Source: Chloroflexota bacterium
GTDB taxonomy: Bacteria > Chloroflexota > Anaerolineae > Anaerolineales > UBA4823
Length of the DNA: 6,222 nt
Reading direction: 5' to 3'
NCBI GenBank assembly: GCA_030613705.1
Contig: JAUWLJ010000134.1
Location: 1 to 6,222 of the forward strand
Program-made: the position numbers and the translations under genes
Shown here: one piece after another, positions 1-6,222 of the stretch
Layout of the letters: each line of letters starts with the position of its first letter
Numbering within the stretch: position 1 is the stretch's first letter
The notes under the pieces: generated by a model
Seen by the model: the letters and a program-made list of their open reading frames with translations, nothing else
The model's database searches: none
Told to the model about the DNA's origin: nothing

Positions 1-96
1 TTCAGCAGACTCGACCTCTTCTTCAACTACTGCTTCTTCAACCACCGCTTCAGCTGACTCAACCTCTTCCTCAATCACCACCTCAGCCTCAATAGC
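1..96 (-). repeat. Imperfect 48-bp tandem repeat coding the acidic tail of the S1-like protein
   Basis: Positions 1-48 and 49-96 align as two imperfect copies with a 48-bp (16-codon) period. The best match is between about 1-27 and 49-75. In the protein each copy carries E-E-E-V-E-S-A-E followed by more Val/Glu/Ala-rich sequence. The array runs into the window edge, so the copy number is unknown. It encodes low-complexity, negatively charged sequence and probably varies in length between strains (inference). Confidence 0.6.
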
Positions 97-1354
97 GCCT
101 TCACTTTCCTCGTCCTGGCTGTCTTCCACAACCTCAGCCAATGTCATTTTCCAGTCAAAATCTGAATACGCGGGAGAGTCAACTTTTCGCAAACTCAACC
201 CAATGCGGTGTCGTTCGGGTTCAATCTTGATCACCCTCAAGGTAACGACATCGCCTTCATGAAGGATCTCTTTCGGATGAGCGACGCGCTGCTCGCTGAT
301 TTCGGAGATATGGATAAGCCCCTCTAAATCTTCGTCTAAGCGGGCGAAAGCGCCAAACTTGGTCAAGTGGGTGATTGTTCCCTCAATCAATTGACCTTCT
401 TTCAAATCTTCGATCTTCTTAACCCAGGGATCTTCTTGAAGCTGGCGTATCGAGAGACCAATCCGTTTACGTTCCCGATCAACCCCAATGACTTTAACCT
501 GGACTTCCTGGCCGACCTTCAGCACCTCTCTTGGATGTTCGATGCGTTCCCAGGAAATCTCGGACAGGTGCACCAATCCATCGGCGCCTTCGATATTCAC
601 AAATGCACCAAAGTCAGCCAAGCTGGTAACCCGTCCAGTGCGAACATCGCCTTCGGACAATTCGTCCAGCAAGCGTTCCTTCAACGATTCGCGAGTCTCC
701 TGGAGGGCGACACGCTCGGAAAGAATTAATCGCCGGCGCTCCCGATCAACTTCAATCACGGATACGGTGATCGGTTCATCGATCATCGATCCCCACCGTT
801 CTTCTGGAGTACTTCCGCTTGAGTCTATTCGCCGGAGTAAACTTACCTGAGACGCCGGTACAAAGCCCCGTAATTGGCCAATTGGAATAATCAAGCCTCC
901 TTTATTAAAGCCAACGATATTTCCCTCGAAGGCGTCGCCAGAGGCAAGCAACGATTCAGCAAACAACCAATCCTTCTCTTCAAGTGCACGCACAAAGGAA
1001 AGTAAGACATTACCATTCTGATCTTCTGGGTTGACAACATAGACCGTTATCTCATTCCCAACGGTTAATTCTTCTCGAAGATCTGATTCAATCTGGTCTA
1101 ATTCTCGAGATGGAATCACACCTTCGGATTTCGTACCTATGCTGACTAAAATTTCTGTATCGGAAACTCTGGCAATGGTACCTTTGCGGATTTCCCCCTG
1201 GCGAGGGAAGTCAAGCCCTAAGCCATTATCCTCTAATAATTCTTCCATTGTTGAAGATTGTTCTTCTTGTGCGGTCTGTTGGTTAATTTCCTCTTCTTGT
1301 TGCTCGTTCTCGGTTGTAGCCTCCTGCCCATCGAGGGCAAAATTCTGATTCATA
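1..1354 (-). CDS. rpsA: 30S ribosomal protein S1-like protein, four S1 domains, partial at the left edge
   Basis: S1 binds mRNA through OB-fold S1 domains and helps the 30S subunit load mRNA. Reading the minus strand from the ATG at 1354-1352 gives 451 codons with no stop up to position 2, so the C-terminus lies outside the window. Four S1 domains can be read at about residues 53-122, 138-213, 235-304 and 320-389. Domains 3 and 4 are the most canonical, with F-G-A-F followed by G-L-V-H-L-S-E-I (246-266) and F-G-A-F followed by G-L-I-H-I-S-E-I (333-352). Residues 1-45 are Gln/Glu-rich and acidic. After the fourth domain comes a Glu/Val/Ala-rich acidic tail from about residue 405. The start is supported by GGAGT 10 nt upstream and a strong promoter. 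Four domains rather than the six of E. coli S1 is a common form outside Proteobacteria. A related S1-domain RNA-binding protein is the alternative. The S1 family call is very secure; the symbol is slightly less so. Confidence 0.93.
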
Positions 1355-1364
1355 TGTTTAGATA

Positions 1365-1369
1365 CTCCA
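1365..1369 (-). promoter_or_regulatory. Ribosome binding site of the S1-like gene
   Basis: On the minus strand GGAGT lies 10 nt before the ATG at 1354. It fixes that ATG as the start and sits inside a predicted leader of about 28 nt. Confidence 0.65.
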
Positions 1370-1389
1370 GGTTAAAAAGATAGGCCTAC

Positions 1390-1418
1390 ATTATAAGAGC
1401 ATATAGATAACTTGACAA
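1390..1418 (-). promoter_or_regulatory. Sigma70-type promoter for the S1-like gene
   Basis: On the minus strand, -35 TTGTCA (1418-1413) and -10 TATAAT (1395-1390) are separated by exactly 17 bp. The -10 box is a perfect consensus and the -35 box has five of six matches. Transcription should begin near 1383, giving a leader of about 28 nt before the ATG. The position directly upstream of a highly expressed ribosomal gene fits a strong promoter. Confidence 0.8.
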
Positions 1419-1421
1419 CCT

Positions 1422-1450
1422 TTGTGATAAGATTGGGTCTCGGTTATAAT
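1422..1450 (+). promoter_or_regulatory. Sigma70-type promoter for the chelatase gene
   Basis: On the plus strand, -35 TTGTGA (1422-1427) and -10 TATAAT (1445-1450) are separated by 17 bp. The predicted transcription start near 1457 leaves only about 13 nt of leader before the ATG at 1470, so there is no room for a B12 riboswitch inside this transcript. The -35 box lies 3 bp from the -35 box of the divergent S1 promoter. Confidence 0.7.
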
Positions 1451-1459
1451 CACAGGGAC

Positions 1460-1463
1460 GAGG
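1460..1463 (+). promoter_or_regulatory. Ribosome binding site of the chelatase ATPase
   Basis: GAGG lies 6 nt before the ATG at 1470. It is short but well spaced. Together with the promoter just upstream it supports 1470 as the start; a longer overlapping frame from 1412 would begin inside the promoter and is not credible. Confidence 0.55.
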
Positions 1464-1469
1464 TCAGAA

Positions 1470-2564
1470 ATGCCGCCAATTTATCCATTTACCGCCGTCG
1501 TAAGCCAAGAGCGGATGAAACGCGCCCTGGTTTTGAACGCAGTGGCGCCGTTCATTGGGGGGGTGTTGATTCGCGGCGAACGTGGCACCGCCAAGTCCAC
1601 TGCCGCTCGTGCCTTAGCCGCACTATTACCTCATGTTCAAGTAGTGAAAGACTGCCGCTTCAGCTGCGACCCGGATCGACCAACAACCTGGTGCACCGAA
1701 TGCCGCGAACGAGTCGCCAATGATGAAACGCTGCCGGTATTACAACAACCTACTCCTTTTATCAACTTGCCCGTCTCAGCAACCGAAGACCGTGTTGTGG
1801 GCACTTTGGATATCGAAAAAGCGATCAAAAAGGGTGAACGCCAATTTGAGCCTGGCGTTTTAGCGGCTGCTAATCGTGGACTGCTCTATATCGACGAGGT
1901 AAATCTCCTGGACGATCACGTCGTGGACCTTTTGCTGGATTCCGCGGCGATGGGAATGAACATCGTCGAGCGCGAAGGGATTTCCTTCTCCCACCCCTCC
2001 CGTTTCATCCTGGTTGGAACCCTGAATCCCGAGGAAGGTGATTTACGCCCCCAGCTTCTTGATCGTTTTGCACTTTCAGTGGAAATCCATGGCATCCGGG
2101 ATGCCCGAGACCGGGTTATGATCATGGAGCGCAACTTAAGTTTCGAAGCGGATCCAGATGGTTTCCGCGATGAATGGCTGGCAAGGGAACAGGATCTTTC
2201 CCATCAAATTGAAGCAGCTCGCTTGCTGCTTGACCATGTTACTTACACCCAGCGCGACTTGCTATCGATCGCCGCCTTGACGACCTCTTTAAATGTCGAT
2301 GGGCATCGAGCCGATCTGGTGATCCTGAAAACTGCCCGGGCACACGCAGCTTTCGAAGGACGGACTGCGATTATTGATCGGGACATCGCCTTGGCAGCTG
2401 AACTGGCTCTACCTCACCGCATCAAGCGTGGGCCTTTCCAGCAAACCGAAATCACCATGGATGACCTGCAGGAGAAAATCGAGCAACTTCAGGGTGGTGC
2501 AACGACAGGAGAACCTGAACCTGTCCCCAGCGAAACCGAATCCGTCGAAAAAAAAAAGGCCTGA
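1470..2564 (+). CDS. chlI: ChlI/BchI-like AAA+ ATPase, small subunit of a Mg/Co chelatase (zero-frame product)
   Basis: This is the ATPase that drives metal insertion into a tetrapyrrole by a ChlIDH/CobNST-type chelatase: it forms rings with the medium subunit and acts on a large CobN- or ChlH-type subunit. Motifs visible in the 364 aa product are Walker A G-E-R-G-T-A-K-S (36-43), the family block T-E-D-R-V-V-G-T-L-D (105-114), Walker B L-L-Y-I-D-E-V-N (138-145), sensor 1 T-L-N-P-E-E-G (184-190), arginine finger region around R199, and sensor 2 G-H-R-A-D-L (278-283). Four cysteines (62, 66, 75, 78) could bind metal. Residues from about 340 form an acidic/proline linker, and the protein ends K-K-K-A right after the A10 slippery tract. 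With no chlorophyll genes in view, a cobalt-chelatase role is as likely as a magnesium one. The family is certain; the metal is inferred. Confidence 0.92.
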   Translation: MPPIYPFTAVVSQERMKRALVLNAVAPFIGGVLIRGERGTAKSTAARALAALLPHVQVVKDCRFSCDPDRPTTWCTECRERVANDETLPVLQQPTPFINLPVSATEDRVVGTLDIEKAIKKGERQFEPGVLAAANRGLLYIDEVNLLDDHVVDLLLDSAAMGMNIVEREGISFSHPSRFILVGTLNPEEGDLRPQLLDRFALSVEIHGIRDARDRVMIMERNLSFEADPDGFRDEWLAREQDLSHQIEAARLLLDHVTYTQRDLLSIAALTTSLNVDGHRADLVILKTARAHAAFEGRTAIIDRDIALAAELALPHRIKRGPFQQTEITMDDLQEKIEQLQGGATTGEPEPVPSETESVEKKKA

Positions 2565-3508
2565 GCCAGGAGGTCCTGGAAGAAGGGTCTGAACAAGGAC
2601 CATTGAGCCCGTCACCCCAATCTGTATTTGATTCTGGCAGAGCTTCCTGGTGGGATGGTGGTGAAAAGGTCAAGATCGGTCAATCTTTTAAACCACGCAA
2701 GATCGACTCTCCTCTGGATAAACTTTCACGCAAAAAGACTGGACGCCGCTCGCGATCGCACACCGAACGCAAGCGCGGTCGCTATATTCGCGCCAGGCCA
2801 GCCAAAGGCAAGGTTACGGACCTGGCTTTTGATGCCACATTTCGTGCCGCGGCCCCCTACCAACGAGAGCGGGCTGAACAACGCAAGCACGTGGCTTTCG
2901 CTATTCAGCCCGAAGACTTTCAACGTAAAGTGCGGGTTAAACGGACTGCCAACCTGGTGCTCTTTGTGGTCGATGCCTCCTGGTCGATGGCGGTGGCTGA
3001 GCGCATGGCAGCTACCAAAGGGGCGATCCTCTCCCTGCTGACAGACGCTTACCAACGAAGGGACCGAGTGGGACTGGTCGTCTTTCAAAAAGACAGGGCT
3101 ACGATGATATTACCCCCGACGAATTCTATCCAGCTGGCTCGCCGCGCCCTGGCAGACATTCCCGTGGGGGGCAAGACCCCCCTTGCAGCTGGCCTTTTCC
3201 TGGCCCATCAAACCATAGATCGAGAAAAGGTTCTCCGCCCGGATGTCCTGCCATTGATAATTTTGCTTACCGATGGTGCAGGTAATGTCTCAATGAGCGG
3301 CCTGCCGCCTCAGGAGGAAGCTCACCAGATAGCGGAAAGGATAGCGGATGATGCTATTCGAGCGATTGTGGTCAACATGGAACACGCCGCCTTCGACCAG
3401 GGTTTAGCTCAGACACTGGCCGAGCATCTCAAGGCCCCCTGCTACACGCTAAACGAGCTCAAGGCTGAGAATTTATACCGGGCAGTACGAGAGGAGATGG
3501 GAGGCTAA
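1470..3508 (+). CDS. chlD: ChlD-like AAA+/VWA medium chelatase subunit made by -1 frameshift (679 aa)
   Basis: If ribosomes slip by -1 on A_AAA_AAG at 2552-2558, the first 363 codons of the ATPase join 316 codons of the downstream frame, ending at TAA 3506-3508. The result has the complete ChlD architecture: AAA+ module (about 1-335), acidic/proline linker (about 340-395), basic segment (about 409-448) and C-terminal VWA domain (about 495-679). Its length is normal for bacterial fused ChlD-type proteins. Established knowledge: programmed frameshifting in chlD-family genes has been reported to yield small and medium subunits from one gene, especially where no separate small-subunit gene exists. 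The alternatives are a homopolymer sequencing error (11 or 8 A would also fuse the frames) or two separately translated genes. The first is not excluded by sequence alone; the second is weak, because the downstream frame lacks a good start. Confidence 0.72.
2548..2579 (+). promoter_or_regulatory. Programmed -1 frameshift signal: A10 slippery tract, TGA in the spacer, stem-loop
   Basis: Ten consecutive A (2548-2557) followed by G place the heptamer A_AAA_AAG at 2552-2558 exactly in zero-frame phase (codons AAA 2553-2555, AAG 2556-2558). This is the same heptamer used by E. coli dnaX. The zero-frame stop TGA (2562-2564) falls in the spacer. After a 7-nt spacer (2559-2565), a stem CCAGG (2566-2570) pairs with CCTGG (2575-2579) around the loop AGGT. 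The stem is only 5 bp, and competing pairings exist (CCTG 2560-2563 with CAGG 2567-2570; GGTCC 2572-2576 with GGACC 2597-2601), so the stimulator may be modest. No Shine-Dalgarno stimulator is seen 10-14 nt upstream of the heptamer. Confidence 0.75.
2603..3508 (+). CDS. ChlD-like VWA-domain region of the chelatase medium subunit (-1 frame)
   Basis: This frame is open from before 2558. Counted from the TTG at 2603 it is 301 codons. The VWA domain starts near residue 115. The MIDAS metal site is complete: D-A-S-W-S at 124-128 (Asp124, Ser126, Ser128), Thr192 in G-G-K-T-P-L, and Asp224 in L-L-T-D-G. Residues 31-70 are strongly basic (Arg/Lys-rich, with G-R-R and R-G-R-Y), as is typical just before the ChlD VWA domain. 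In chelatases this half contacts the large subunit and couples ATPase motion to it. There is no ATG or GTG in frame before the VWA core; the only early candidate is TTG 2603, with AAGGA just 3 nt upstream, which is poor. I therefore read this mainly as the C-terminal half of the frameshift product rather than an independent gene. Independent initiation at TTG, coupled to termination at 2564, remains possible. Confidence 0.85.
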   Translation: MSPSPQSVFDSGRASWWDGGEKVKIGQSFKPRKIDSPLDKLSRKKTGRRSRSHTERKRGRYIRARPAKGKVTDLAFDATFRAAAPYQRERAEQRKHVAFAIQPEDFQRKVRVKRTANLVLFVVDASWSMAVAERMAATKGAILSLLTDAYQRRDRVGLVVFQKDRATMILPPTNSIQLARRALADIPVGGKTPLAAGLFLAHQTIDREKVLRPDVLPLIILLTDGAGNVSMSGLPPQEEAHQIAERIADDAIRAIVVNMEHAAFDQGLAQTLAEHLKAPCYTLNELKAENLYRAVREEMGG

Positions 3509-3518
3509 CAAGTCCGGT

Positions 3519-3759
3519 ATGCCTGCTGCCGCTGCGCGATTATCCCTTTTCACCGAGTCGGTAATCCGTGTGATGCCCCGAGTCGCCGAACAGTATGGTG
3601 CGAAAACATAGTCTTCTCATGGGAGTAGATAGTGATCCGCTTATTCAAGCCACTAAGACGATGGTGGCAGCCTTGGTGACCGTCTGTGATCCAGGAGACA
3701 ATCTGGGCTCACTGGCAGCAATTGAGGAACGGGTATCGAAGCTGCCCAACTGGTTGTGA
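3519..3759 (+). pseudogene. Relic of a PLP-dependent class I/II aminotransferase
   Basis: From ATG 3519 a 30-residue frame ends at TAG 3609-3611. It contains R-L-S-L-F-T-E-S-V-I-R (7-17) and E-Q-Y-G-A (24-28), which match the N-terminus of class I/II aminotransferases of the kynurenine/methionine type, where the next conserved part would be the N-L-x-Q-G-F-P-D motif. That motif is missing. In another frame, from ATG 3619 to TGA 3757-3759 (46 residues), there is T-M-V-A-A-L-V-T-V-C-D-P-G-D (14-27), which resembles a segment about 65 residues further into the same family (T-E-x-M-x-A-A-L-x-x-x-x-D-P-G-D). The stretch therefore looks like a gene reduced by an internal deletion, a frameshift and loss of the C-terminal two thirds. 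The PLP lysine region is absent, so it cannot be functional. The identification comes from remembered family motifs. Apart from this relic, 3509-3755 shows no convincing terminator or promoter. Confidence 0.55.
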
Positions 3760-5237
3760 ACAGGATGATGAAACCAATCACTGCAATCATCATCACTCTG
3801 TGTTTCGGAATCTTGATCAGCGGATGCAATACCGGTAATCAAGTGTCCTCCACACCCGCCAGGGTTTCAAACACTCCCCTCGCTGCGCCTGCGACCGAAA
3901 ATGTACCTGCTGCAACAGTCACCCCTGCAGATCCATCCCCCGTACCTGAAAATCCTGCCCTGCCCCTGAGCAAATATGCCCTCTCTGCAGAGTTGGACTA
4001 TGACCTTCATGTGCTAAAGGTAGATGAGCAGCTTTCCTATATCAACACTTCCGAGTCCGAATTAGACGAACTCCTTTTGCTAATCGAACCTAACAGCTAT
4101 CCAAACGGATTTACACTCGGTGCTCTGACTTGGGAAAATGGCGAACCGATCTCAAATTACTCGCTGAGCGATCGTGAGTTGCTGATCCCCCTGCCGGAAA
4201 ACCTTCTTCCAGGCAATACAATCGGTATAATCATAACCTTCGAACTCAATTTGCCAAATCAGAATGCTCCTTACGGGTACACTGACCGGCAAACAAACCT
4301 GGGGGATTGGTATCCTTATGTACCGCCACTTACCCCTGAGGGTGGCTGGCTCGTGCGCGAGGAGGCCTTCTTAGGAGAGCATCTCGCTTACGACATGGCT
4401 GAATTTACAGTGGAAATTCAGCTGGCCAATAGCAGAGATCTGGTGCTTGCGGCCAGTTCTACCCCCGAGATCGATGGGGATATTTACCGCTATCACCACA
4501 CACCTGCCCGGAATTTCGTCTGGACGGTCAGCCATCTTTACCTCGAACAGGAAACCCAAGCGGGCGATGTGCTGGTGAAGAGTTATTCCTTCCCTTATCA
4601 CCCCCAGGCAGACGGGCCTGCCCTGGAAGAAACGGCCAAAGCTTTAAAAATTTTCAATGAATTGTTCGGCCCATACCCGCATAAAGCCCTTACGGTCGTG
4701 GAAGCCGATTTTCTGGATGGGATGGAATACGATGGTCTGATCTTCCTCAGCCACGCCTTCTATGATTACTATACGGGTGATCCGCGAAGTAATTTGACCA
4801 TCATCGCCGCCCACGAAGTTGCCCACCAGTGGTGGTATGGATTGGTCGGCAACGATCAGGCTTTGGAGCCCTGGCTGGATGAAGCATTGAGCACCTTCAG
4901 CGAGATATATTTTTATGAAACTGCCTACCCAGATCTGACCGATTGGTGGTGGGAAAACAGGATTTACTTTCACAACCCTCAGGGTTGGGTCGACAGCACC
5001 ATCTACGAGGCAGCTGGCTTTTATCCATATAGGGATGCTGTTTACTTGCGCGGGGCCTTGTTTCTTGGGGAGCTGCGCGACTTAATGGGAGAGGAAGAAT
5101 ACCTGGAATTCTTGAGGGCGTACCTGGAGAAATTCCGTTATCGCCAGGCCAGTGGAGACGATTTTTTCAGCCTGCTTTCAGAATACACATCTGCCGACTT
5201 GAGCGGCACGATCGGAACCTATTTCTCCCGCCGCTGA
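3756..5237 (+). CDS. M1-family (gluzincin) metallopeptidase-like lipoprotein
   Basis: This is a predicted surface-anchored zinc peptidase, probably an aminopeptidase, 493 aa from GTG 3756. The N-terminus is a lipoprotein signal: a hydrophobic stretch (8-22) and lipobox L-I-S-G-C with the acylated cysteine at 24. A Thr/Pro/Ala-rich linker (about 30-70) follows, then a beta-rich N-terminal domain (about 74-285) and the catalytic domain. The zinc site is H-E-V-A-H (353-357) with the third ligand Glu376 in W-L-D-E, 18 residues after His357, which is canonical M1 spacing. G-M-E-Y-D-G (322-327) is the counterpart of the M1 G-x-M-E-N substrate motif, with Tyr replacing Asn. Tyr430 in V-Y-L-R-G-A is placed like the catalytic tyrosine. 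The protein stops soon after the catalytic domain, so the usual M1 C-terminal helical domain is missing. Starts at GTG 3756, ATG 3765 or ATG 3768 all keep the signal peptide and none has a clear Shine-Dalgarno. GTG 3756 overlaps the preceding TGA as GTGA. Confidence 0.88.
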   Translation: MNRMMKPITAIIITLCFGILISGCNTGNQVSSTPARVSNTPLAAPATENVPAATVTPADPSPVPENPALPLSKYALSAELDYDLHVLKVDEQLSYINTSESELDELLLLIEPNSYPNGFTLGALTWENGEPISNYSLSDRELLIPLPENLLPGNTIGIIITFELNLPNQNAPYGYTDRQTNLGDWYPYVPPLTPEGGWLVREEAFLGEHLAYDMAEFTVEIQLANSRDLVLAASSTPEIDGDIYRYHHTPARNFVWTVSHLYLEQETQAGDVLVKSYSFPYHPQADGPALEETAKALKIFNELFGPYPHKALTVVEADFLDGMEYDGLIFLSHAFYDYYTGDPRSNLTIIAAHEVAHQWWYGLVGNDQALEPWLDEALSTFSEIYFYETAYPDLTDWWWENRIYFHNPQGWVDSTIYEAAGFYPYRDAVYLRGALFLGELRDLMGEEEYLEFLRAYLEKFRYRQASGDDFFSLLSEYTSADLSGTIGTYFSRR

Positions 5238-5272
5238 CGAGATCAATTGACACTCTCGACCCAATCAACTCA

Positions 5273-6222
5273 ATGAAAACGAAGTTAGCTGCCTTTTCCC
5301 TCTCCCTGCTCGTCACCATTTTAGCTGCTTGCACAAGCCAGAATCCCTCCGTCGTCTCGAGCCAGCCACCTGCCACCACTGCAACAGGTACTCCTGATCG
5401 CCATACTGCAACCAGCCCGCCTCCAACTTTGACGTCAACCAAACCTGCAACCCCTGCTGTAGACGATCGGCAAGAATCGCCCACTCCGGAACCCCTGACT
5501 GTCAATCGTACTCAATACAATCTTAGTGCAACCCTGAATTACCTCCGCCATCATCTCTCTGTTGAAGAACAAATAGCCTATACCAATCAATCCGGCGAAT
5601 CGATCGCAGATCTGCTGTTGATCATCGAACCTGCGCGCTATCCAGGCGTATTTCAACTGCACAGCCTCTCCTGGAGCGATGGTCAACCTATCCTTGATTA
5701 CACCCGTGACTTAGGACTTTTGCGCATCCCTTTGGTAGATCCTCTGCCTCCCGGTGAGAAGTTAGGCCTCTCCCTATCGTACGATCTGAACCTGCCCTCG
5801 CCCAGCCCTTCATATTATGGTCGCCCGGTCCTCTTTGGTTATTCTAGCCGGCAAACCAACCTGGTTGATTGGTACCCCTTCATCCCTCCTTATGTGCCTG
5901 GCGAAGGCTGGGTGGCGCATAATGCCGGTCCCTTCGGAGAGCATCTCGTTTATGAGGTGGCTGACTTCGAGGTGAAGATCCAGCTGAGCGATTCAAATCC
6001 TGATCTGGTCATTGCGGCCAGCGCCCCCGCTGAGATGGACAACGATGTGTACCGCTATCAGTTTAAAGGCGCGCGCAATTTCTCTTGGTCTGTCAGCGAC
6101 CAATACCTATTATCCACAACAACCGTGGATTCAGTGGTTGTATTATCATATTATTTTCCGGTCAACACAGTAGCCGGTATGGCTGTCCTGCAAACCACCG
6201 CTGAGGCGTTGGAACTATATAA
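5273..6222 (+). CDS. Second M1-like lipoprotein, paralogue of the preceding gene, partial at the right edge
   Basis: The frame opens at ATG 5273 and is still open at the window end (316 codons plus 2 nt). The signal peptide is clear: K2/K4, a hydrophobic core (5-18) and lipobox I-L-A-A-C with cysteine 20. A Thr/Pro/Ser-rich linker (about 21-75) follows. From about residue 82 it aligns through its visible length with the N-terminal domain of the upstream lipoprotein: shared blocks are L-L-x-I-E-P (115-120), R-Q-T-N-L (193-197), D-W-Y-P (199-202), G-E-H-L-x-Y (222-227) and V-Y-R-Y (259-262). It carries about nine extra residues near 180-188. The catalytic part lies beyond the window, so activity cannot be judged. 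It starts 35 bp after the upstream stop in the same direction, which suggests an operon formed by tandem duplication. No good Shine-Dalgarno precedes the ATG. Confidence 0.87.
   Translation, partial: MKTKLAAFSLSLLVTILAACTSQNPSVVSSQPPATTATGTPDRHTATSPPPTLTSTKPATPAVDDRQESPTPEPLTVNRTQYNLSATLNYLRHHLSVEEQIAYTNQSGESIADLLLIIEPARYPGVFQLHSLSWSDGQPILDYTRDLGLLRIPLVDPLPPGEKLGLSLSYDLNLPSPSPSYYGRPVLFGYSSRQTNLVDWYPFIPPYVPGEGWVAHNAGPFGEHLVYEVADFEVKIQLSDSNPDLVIAASAPAEMDNDVYRYQFKGARNFSWSVSDQYLLSTTTVDSVVVLSYYFPVNTVAGMAVLQTTAEALELY

Follow-up and report, generated by a model that had tools for sequence, protein, structure and literature searches.

The ChlI/ChlD and CobS/CobT pairs form AAA+ rings. Split chlD genes, whose ChlI-like and VWA parts occupy different frames that meet at an A tract, were found with GeneTack (PMC3711429), and a short and a long product have been proposed for them (PMC3711429; PMC9227772). 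Carriers named in PMC9227772 include Anaerolinea, Longilinea, Levilinea, Ornatilinea and Brevefilum; its stage-1 examples, such as Brevefilum, are described there as being without the large subunit and without the B12 and chlorophyll pathways, and their function is left open. The published shift is treated as ribosomal, and a review of ribosomal frameshifting counts the chlD site among the conserved ones (PMC5009743). In literature searches on chlD or magnesium chelatase with frameshifting or transcriptional slippage we found no report of polymerase slippage in chlD; Antonov 2020 may discuss it. The gene analysed here lies on a stretch of 6,222 nucleotides (nt) from a Chloroflexota bacterium of the order Anaerolineales (assembly GCA_030613705.1, contig JAUWLJ010000134.1, positions 1 to 6,222; hereafter, the window). 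It belongs to this known kind, since split chlD genes with an A tract, including those of Anaerolineaceae, have already been published. For the gene family as a whole, our analysis favours slippage of the polymerase where the tract is long and a shift of the ribosome where it is short, a swap like that of dnaX within one gene.

In dnaX, too, a single gene yields a short and a long AAA+ subunit, at the same kinds of site and by two mechanisms among homologues: in Thermus thermophilus the polymerase slips at nine A/T, with stops near in both other frames, and in Escherichia coli the ribosome shifts on A_AAA_AAG (PMC5009743). Most genes studied here differ in polarity, because the slip is needed for the long product, as it is in the dnaX genes with two open reading frames (ORFs) and ten A (PMC3711429), and a swap of mechanism would here fall within one bacterial order. 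Compared with the published split chlD genes, the genes with long tracts occur in three arrangements and stops are enriched in both frames that do not encode the product; in addition, one-frame relatives with nine A and a stop in the -1 frame are described here.

The split gene, its tract and its relatives

In the window, the first frame runs from 1470 to 2564 and the second continues in -1 until 3508, the two meeting at a run of ten A (A10). The features of the locus are:

1470..2564, plus strand: zero-frame ORF, ChlI-like AAA+ ATPase of 364 amino acids, the predicted short product (sequence and domain matches)
1824-2030, plus strand: Mg_chelatase match in the zero-frame ORF (domain search)
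2265-2471, plus strand: AAA lid match in the zero-frame ORF (domain search)
2519..3508, plus strand: open -1 frame with the VWA part, overlapping the zero-frame ORF by 46 nt (sequence)
2548..2557, plus strand: A10 tract, predicted slip site (sequence)
2552..2558, plus strand: heptamer A_AAA_AAG in zero-frame phase, the slip site if the ribosome shifts (sequence)
2562..2564, plus strand: zero-frame stop TGA, separated from the tract by 4 bases (sequence)
2566..2579, plus strand: stem-loop CCAGG-AGGT-CCTGG, 5-bp stem (2566-2570 with 2575-2579) and loop AGGT, starting 7 nt after the heptamer (sequence)
2590..2592, plus strand: first stop of the third (+1) frame, ending 35 nt past the tract (sequence)
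2603..2605, plus strand: TTG, the first ATG, GTG or TTG of the open -1 frame; candidate separate start, judged unlikely (sequence)
about 2957-3277, plus strand: VWA domain match in the -1 frame (domain search)

The 3' end of the zero-frame ORF reads GAA AAA AAA AAG GCC TGA, and slippage, joining the frames at 2558, would give a predicted long product of 363 + 316 = 679 amino acids. The N-terminal part is ChlI-like (PF01078 and PF17863; structures 1g8p, 6l8d and 8osf) and the C-terminal part carries a BchD-like VWA domain (PF13519 and PF00092; structure 2x31). The AAA+ ATPase with its lid and the VWA domain are both present, as in a ChlI/ChlD-type pair, the likeness to magnesium chelatase (BchI/BchD) reaching E values of 2.8e-98 for the N-terminal part against 1g8p and 2.4e-21 for the C-terminal part against 2x31. 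The coordinates, the phase of the heptamer, the stop in the spacer and the sum of 679 amino acids all agree with a preliminary description of the window, and the survey of relatives supports its view of a single split gene with a conserved frame change at the A tract and two predicted products.

Relatives were sampled as the best 80 of 193, together with 100 further places among the genomes of the order that carry the gene. Seven loci for which only one of the two parts was found (L019, L051, L072, L073, L110, L116 and L168) were left out before counting, as were L271 and L272 and identical copies of the same gene. The 204 distinct junctions obtained from Anaerolineales genomes and named contigs comprised 190 in the -1 arrangement, seven in the zero and seven in the +1 arrangement, and the -1 splits include those of cultured Longilinea, Thermanaerothrix and Leptolinea strains. 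The -1 relation given in the preliminary description is thus widely conserved among orthologues, and the outcome it regarded as fatal, orthologues that are all in one frame and devoid of an A run, did not occur. Moreover, the heptamer is placed beyond chance, because in a first set of 110 split orthologues all but one (109) carry an in-phase A_AAA_AAN among the last 12 codons ahead of the zero-frame stop, as against 6 occurrences among the 36,190 codons that make up the first 330 codons of each of these genes.

The expanded set of 242 junctions, with 37 added from outside the order and one (L262) from inside it (38 in all), holds 199 long tracts (A9-A10), 28 short tracts (A6-A8) and 15 junctions with no tract. 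Long tracts occur in all three arrangements (179 in -1, 16 in zero and four in +1), short ones in two (26 in -1 and two in zero), and the tractless junctions are in the zero frame (11) or in +1 (four); none of the 227 tract-bearing genes has a tract longer than A10. All 24 tracts of A6-A7 begin at codon position 3, and A9 tracts begin at codon positions 1, 2 and 3 in 24, 83 and 32 cases, respectively. Both frame and tract class follow the tree, because parsimony on a FastTree tree required 17 frame changes (shuffled-label mean 35.7) and 13 changes of tract class (mean 41.5). Within one lineage, the same TCATAACTGA follows A9 in L061, in the zero arrangement, and A10 in L068 and L100, in +1; similarly, the sister of the window, L002, has A10 in the zero arrangement and one extra base past the tract. 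L053-L055 are distant paralogues, and in L248, a member of the order, the tract is gone and the VWA part is in +1, perhaps as a decayed copy or a third way. Genome-wide, A9 gave few hits, 7 to 56 in five genomes (both strands, overlapping hits counted), which provides no clear sign on avoidance.

Hairpins and out-of-frame stops past the tract

Hairpins starting 4-11 nt after the heptamer were compared with the mean of control sites in the same gene. They exceeded this mean in 24 of the 28 short-tract genes as against 47 of the 199 long-tract genes, for which the mean hairpin was -4.5 kcal/mol, versus -7.5 kcal/mol at their own control sites. When ten long-tract genes were drawn at random 20,000 times, the hairpin mean of the short-tract clades was matched by two draws. 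Over the 45 nt downstream, the mean folding z was -2.1 for tracts of A7 or less (15 genes), -3.3 for A8 (four), -0.2 for A9 (120) and -0.6 for A10 (52). The stem-loop noted in the preliminary description is present in the window, with its 7-nt spacer; at -6.7 kcal/mol, however, it does not exceed the control sites of its own gene (-7.4 kcal/mol), nor is it kept through the genus: L002 shares the 5 bp of the window, L003 and L004 have 4 bp each, and in L045, of the same genus, the stem is broken.

A ribosomal -1 shift uses two frames only, so that the third is never read. Slippage would produce mRNAs of several lengths and hence translation in all three frames, and stops would therefore pay in both wasted frames. 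Expected counts of third-frame stops were obtained by swapping synonymous codons according to the usage of each gene. In the long-tract -1 genes, a third-frame stop was found within 24 nt in 133/179 (expected 77.2, standard deviation 5.6) and within 45 nt in 172/179 (expected 105.5). The enrichment holds when conditioned on the same zero-frame stop (118/157, expected 65.9) and when averaged over 91-155 tree clusters (0.72-0.73 vs an expected 0.38-0.42). Long-tract genes in the zero arrangement (13/16 within 24 nt, expected 4.9) and in +1 (4/4, expected 1.1) behave alike, and the corresponding figures for short-tract -1 genes are 4/26 within 24 nt (expected 6.4) and 14/26 within 45 nt (expected 12.5). 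The null was well calibrated at 30, 45 and 90 nt past the tract (observed/expected 0.33/0.32, 0.20/0.20 and 0.12/0.13), 75 nt before it (0.28/0.28) and in the linkers of tractless in-frame genes (0.25/0.24), but poorer at 60, 150 and 240 nt (0.21/0.30, 0.56/0.48 and 0.34/0.44). Thus, the A9-A10 class appears not to be confined to the zero and -1 frames, as both the third-frame stops and the +1 arrangements indicate, although the sign is weak in the window's own family.

One Chloroflexota family (L265 and L273-L281), probably of phototrophic Chloroflexales, carries the gene in one frame. All ten genes fetched have exactly A9 and a stop in the -1 frame 6 nt further on, and eight have a third-frame stop within 20 nt, that of L273 and L278 lying at 284 and 353 nt. 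We predict that these are hidden two-product genes; their layout is close to that reported for Thermus dnaX (PMC5009743).

Probable polymerase slippage and its alternatives

Four observations lead us to read the long tracts as probable sites of slippage: the three arrangements, the three phases, the weak hairpins and the third-frame stops. A length of about 8-9 A or more is given for transcriptional slippage (PMC3711429; PMC1088944), and the window has A10 and 199 of the 227 tract-bearing genes have A9-A10. An unconserved direction of the frame change in transposase families has likewise been considered to suggest transcriptional realignment (PMC3711429). In the +1 arrangement the long product could not be made by a -1 ribosomal shift, but could be made by the loss of one A. 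We therefore consider it rather probable that the A10 at 2548-2557 is the switch of the split AAA+/VWA gene and that it is worked by slippage of the RNA polymerase, yielding proteins of 364 and 679 amino acids. The polymerase would slip on A10 and give mRNAs that differ in the number of A, each translated normally: faithful A10 mRNA would lead to the stop at 2562-2564 and the ChlI-like ATPase, mRNA that had gained one A or lost two would bring the VWA part into frame and give the ChlD-like protein, and with the remaining tract lengths translation would pass into the third frame and end at 2590-2592. We infer that both proteins are made, and they would assemble in the manner of the ChlI/ChlD and CobS/CobT rings. 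In the A6-A8 relatives with a stem-loop a -1 ribosomal shift is likely, so that the family would swap mechanisms.

Our confidence in slippage is higher for the A9 genes as a class than for the window, with its A10, modest stem and third-frame stop at 35 nt, where slippage is favoured but not settled. The tract itself and a family that is labile in frame speak for it there: among the 30 members of the window's family, chosen by hand from the kinship table, L002 and L005 are in the zero arrangement and L039 and L041 in +1. Third-frame stops in this family are enriched within 45 nt (23/26, expected 13.3), but not within 24 nt (8/26, expected 6.7), and in 13 of the 30 members the hairpin past the tract exceeds that of their own control; on balance we hold slippage in the window to be rather probable and retain a tentative place for the published explanation, programmed -1 ribosomal frameshifting on A_AAA_AAG (2552-2558) aided by the stem-loop at 2566-2579.

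That explanation, also put forward in the preliminary description, is doubtful as an account of the window, although parts of it stand: the heptamer is in phase, with a 7-nt spacer and a 5-bp stem, and the -1 arrangement dominates. Besides the lack of an excess of early third-frame stops and the hairpins in the window's own family, several further observations weigh against slippage. The -1 arrangement is found in 205 of the 227 tract-bearing genes, a dominance that ribosomal shifting predicts, even if a one-base insertion would favour it too. A ribosomal shift could occur in any A9-A10 gene, because the tract holds an in-phase A_AAA_AAN. The 45 nt past the tract of the window are more stable than their shuffles (z -2.0), and 34 Anaerolineales genes with A9 or more are followed by a hairpin at least as stable as -8 kcal/mol. 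The association of hairpins with short tracts is itself imperfect, seven of ten short-tract clades being above control, L083 and L132 clearly not and L215/L240 equal. Finally, within the order the zero and +1 arrangements rest mostly on single metagenome assemblies, which may be one base off. In E. coli, chlD cassettes with 11, 9 and 7 A gave 63, 40 and 10% frameshifting (PMC3711429), and the A6-A8 relatives resemble classic ribosomal sites; the cassette assay, however, read protein and, as described there, does not separate slippage of the polymerase from that of the ribosome. Moreover, an in-phase heptamer is uninformative for tracts of 9 or more, the stem is not conserved through the genus, and a ribosomal shift sits poorly with hairpins above control in only 47/199 long-tract genes, with A9-A10 in zero and +1 arrangements and with the enriched third-frame stops.

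Ribosomes that slide along the A tract without a fixed step, entering all three frames, would also account for the third-frame stops. Sliding on poly(A) is established, and some truncated product appears with as few as three AAA lysines (PMC4363877); in the E. coli cell-free system described there, however, sliding was robust on A11 and slight on A9 or A10, the lengths found here, which makes it improbable for this family. Still less probable are two separate proteins, the VWA part starting alone by reinitiation after the stop at 2564. The VWA frame does contain a TTG, at 2603, and of the 205 split genes 107 offer at least one ATG, GTG or TTG within the stretch searched, from 30 nt before the tract to the conserved block, but the other 98 have none in that frame, a Shine-Dalgarno-like four-mer precedes such a start in only 4/205, and the in-frame relatives encode a single long protein. 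That the window shows a sequencing error or a broken gene is very nearly excluded in our estimation, even though its assembly is fragmentary (58% complete, 351 contigs) and the sister L002 is in one frame; as an account of the whole family, error is refuted, because 190 of the 204 distinct junctions show the -1 split, some of them in cultured strains.

If polymerase slippage is correct, a family published as an example of ribosomal frameshifting would be mostly a transcriptional-slippage family in this phylum, with natural replicates of both mechanisms within one order. Third-frame stops would then provide a sequence-only test of mechanism for other poly(A) recoding genes, and the one-frame A9 genes would make two proteins. 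The combined proposal is an even call: that A9-A10 tracts work by slippage whatever the frame relation in the DNA, A6-A8 tracts by the ribosome and a stem-loop, one-frame A9 genes are hidden makers of a short form, and in Anaerolineales the pair acts on something other than the large subunit of a chelatase.

Chelatase partners and neighbouring genes

The split gene was found in 233 of 251 Anaerolineales genomes, the window's own included (E <= 1e-80), and the large-subunit family PF02514 (CobN/ChlH) in only two, which makes it more pressing to ask what role a ChlI/ChlD pair has where its large subunit is missing. PF02514 was found in none of the 162 Anaerolineales genomes of at least 90% completeness and at most 5% contamination, nor in the window's own genome (58% complete); the search itself works, as 33 of 201 genomes of a phylum sample matched. 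The cobalt-chelatase subunits suggested in the preliminary description are therefore unsupported here, and neither a cobalt nor a magnesium chelatase of known make is supported in the order. Relative to CobNST, both parts align in order with TIGR02442 ("putative cobaltochelatase"; 1-335 and 386-640 of 641), but each part alone stays below its cut-off, no cobN partner was found in the incomplete genome of the window, and the four fetched in-frame relatives with cobN adjoining on the contig (L283, L285, L287 and L288) have no tract. Elsewhere in the phylum, a tract-bearing gene and PF02514 occur together (for example in G283, G292, G320, G342, G349, G379, G387 and G402), and in those genomes a chelatase role is compatible with the data. 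With its AAA+ and VWA parts, the pair may be a two-ring motor acting on another protein, and since the large subunit is almost absent from the order we expect that in Anaerolineales this chelatase-like motor has a client other than the chelatase large subunit. In addition to the split gene, 38 of 61 genomes hold a separate ChlI-like gene, at 34-40% identity. Both Anaerolineales genomes with a CobN/ChlH match (G176:C15, which is L072, and G070:C292, which is L073) also hold a second ChlI-like gene, and in G176 a ChlI-like match sits on the CobN locus.

The gene neighbourhood gave no clear client among the 55 loci with longer flanks. An S1-domain gene adjoins the split gene in 20 of them, as it does in the window. 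A MeaB GTPase lies upstream on the other strand in 13 loci, all from a single group of Anaerolineaceae-like records, and is accompanied in 11 by a B12-binding mutase subunit; the domains were checked at one locus (L104, 2350-3846, minus strand), and we would not lean on the hint at cobalamin enzymes. The window gave neither a tRNA nor, at gathering score, an Rfam match; its remaining features are:

1-1353, minus strand: RNA-binding protein carrying an S1 domain and an acidic tail at its C terminus, in divergent orientation to the split gene (domain search)
3756-5237 and 5273-6220, plus strand: tandem pair of paralogues, secreted or lipoprotein-like, sharing 41% identity across 317 aligned positions

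The stretch between the end of the VWA part and the first paralogue (3509-3755, plus strand) has no plus-strand ORF of at least 60 amino acids, but protein-like pieces can be seen by eye, perhaps the remains of a decayed small gene. The first paralogue carries a Peptidase_M1 domain, and the second runs off the window.

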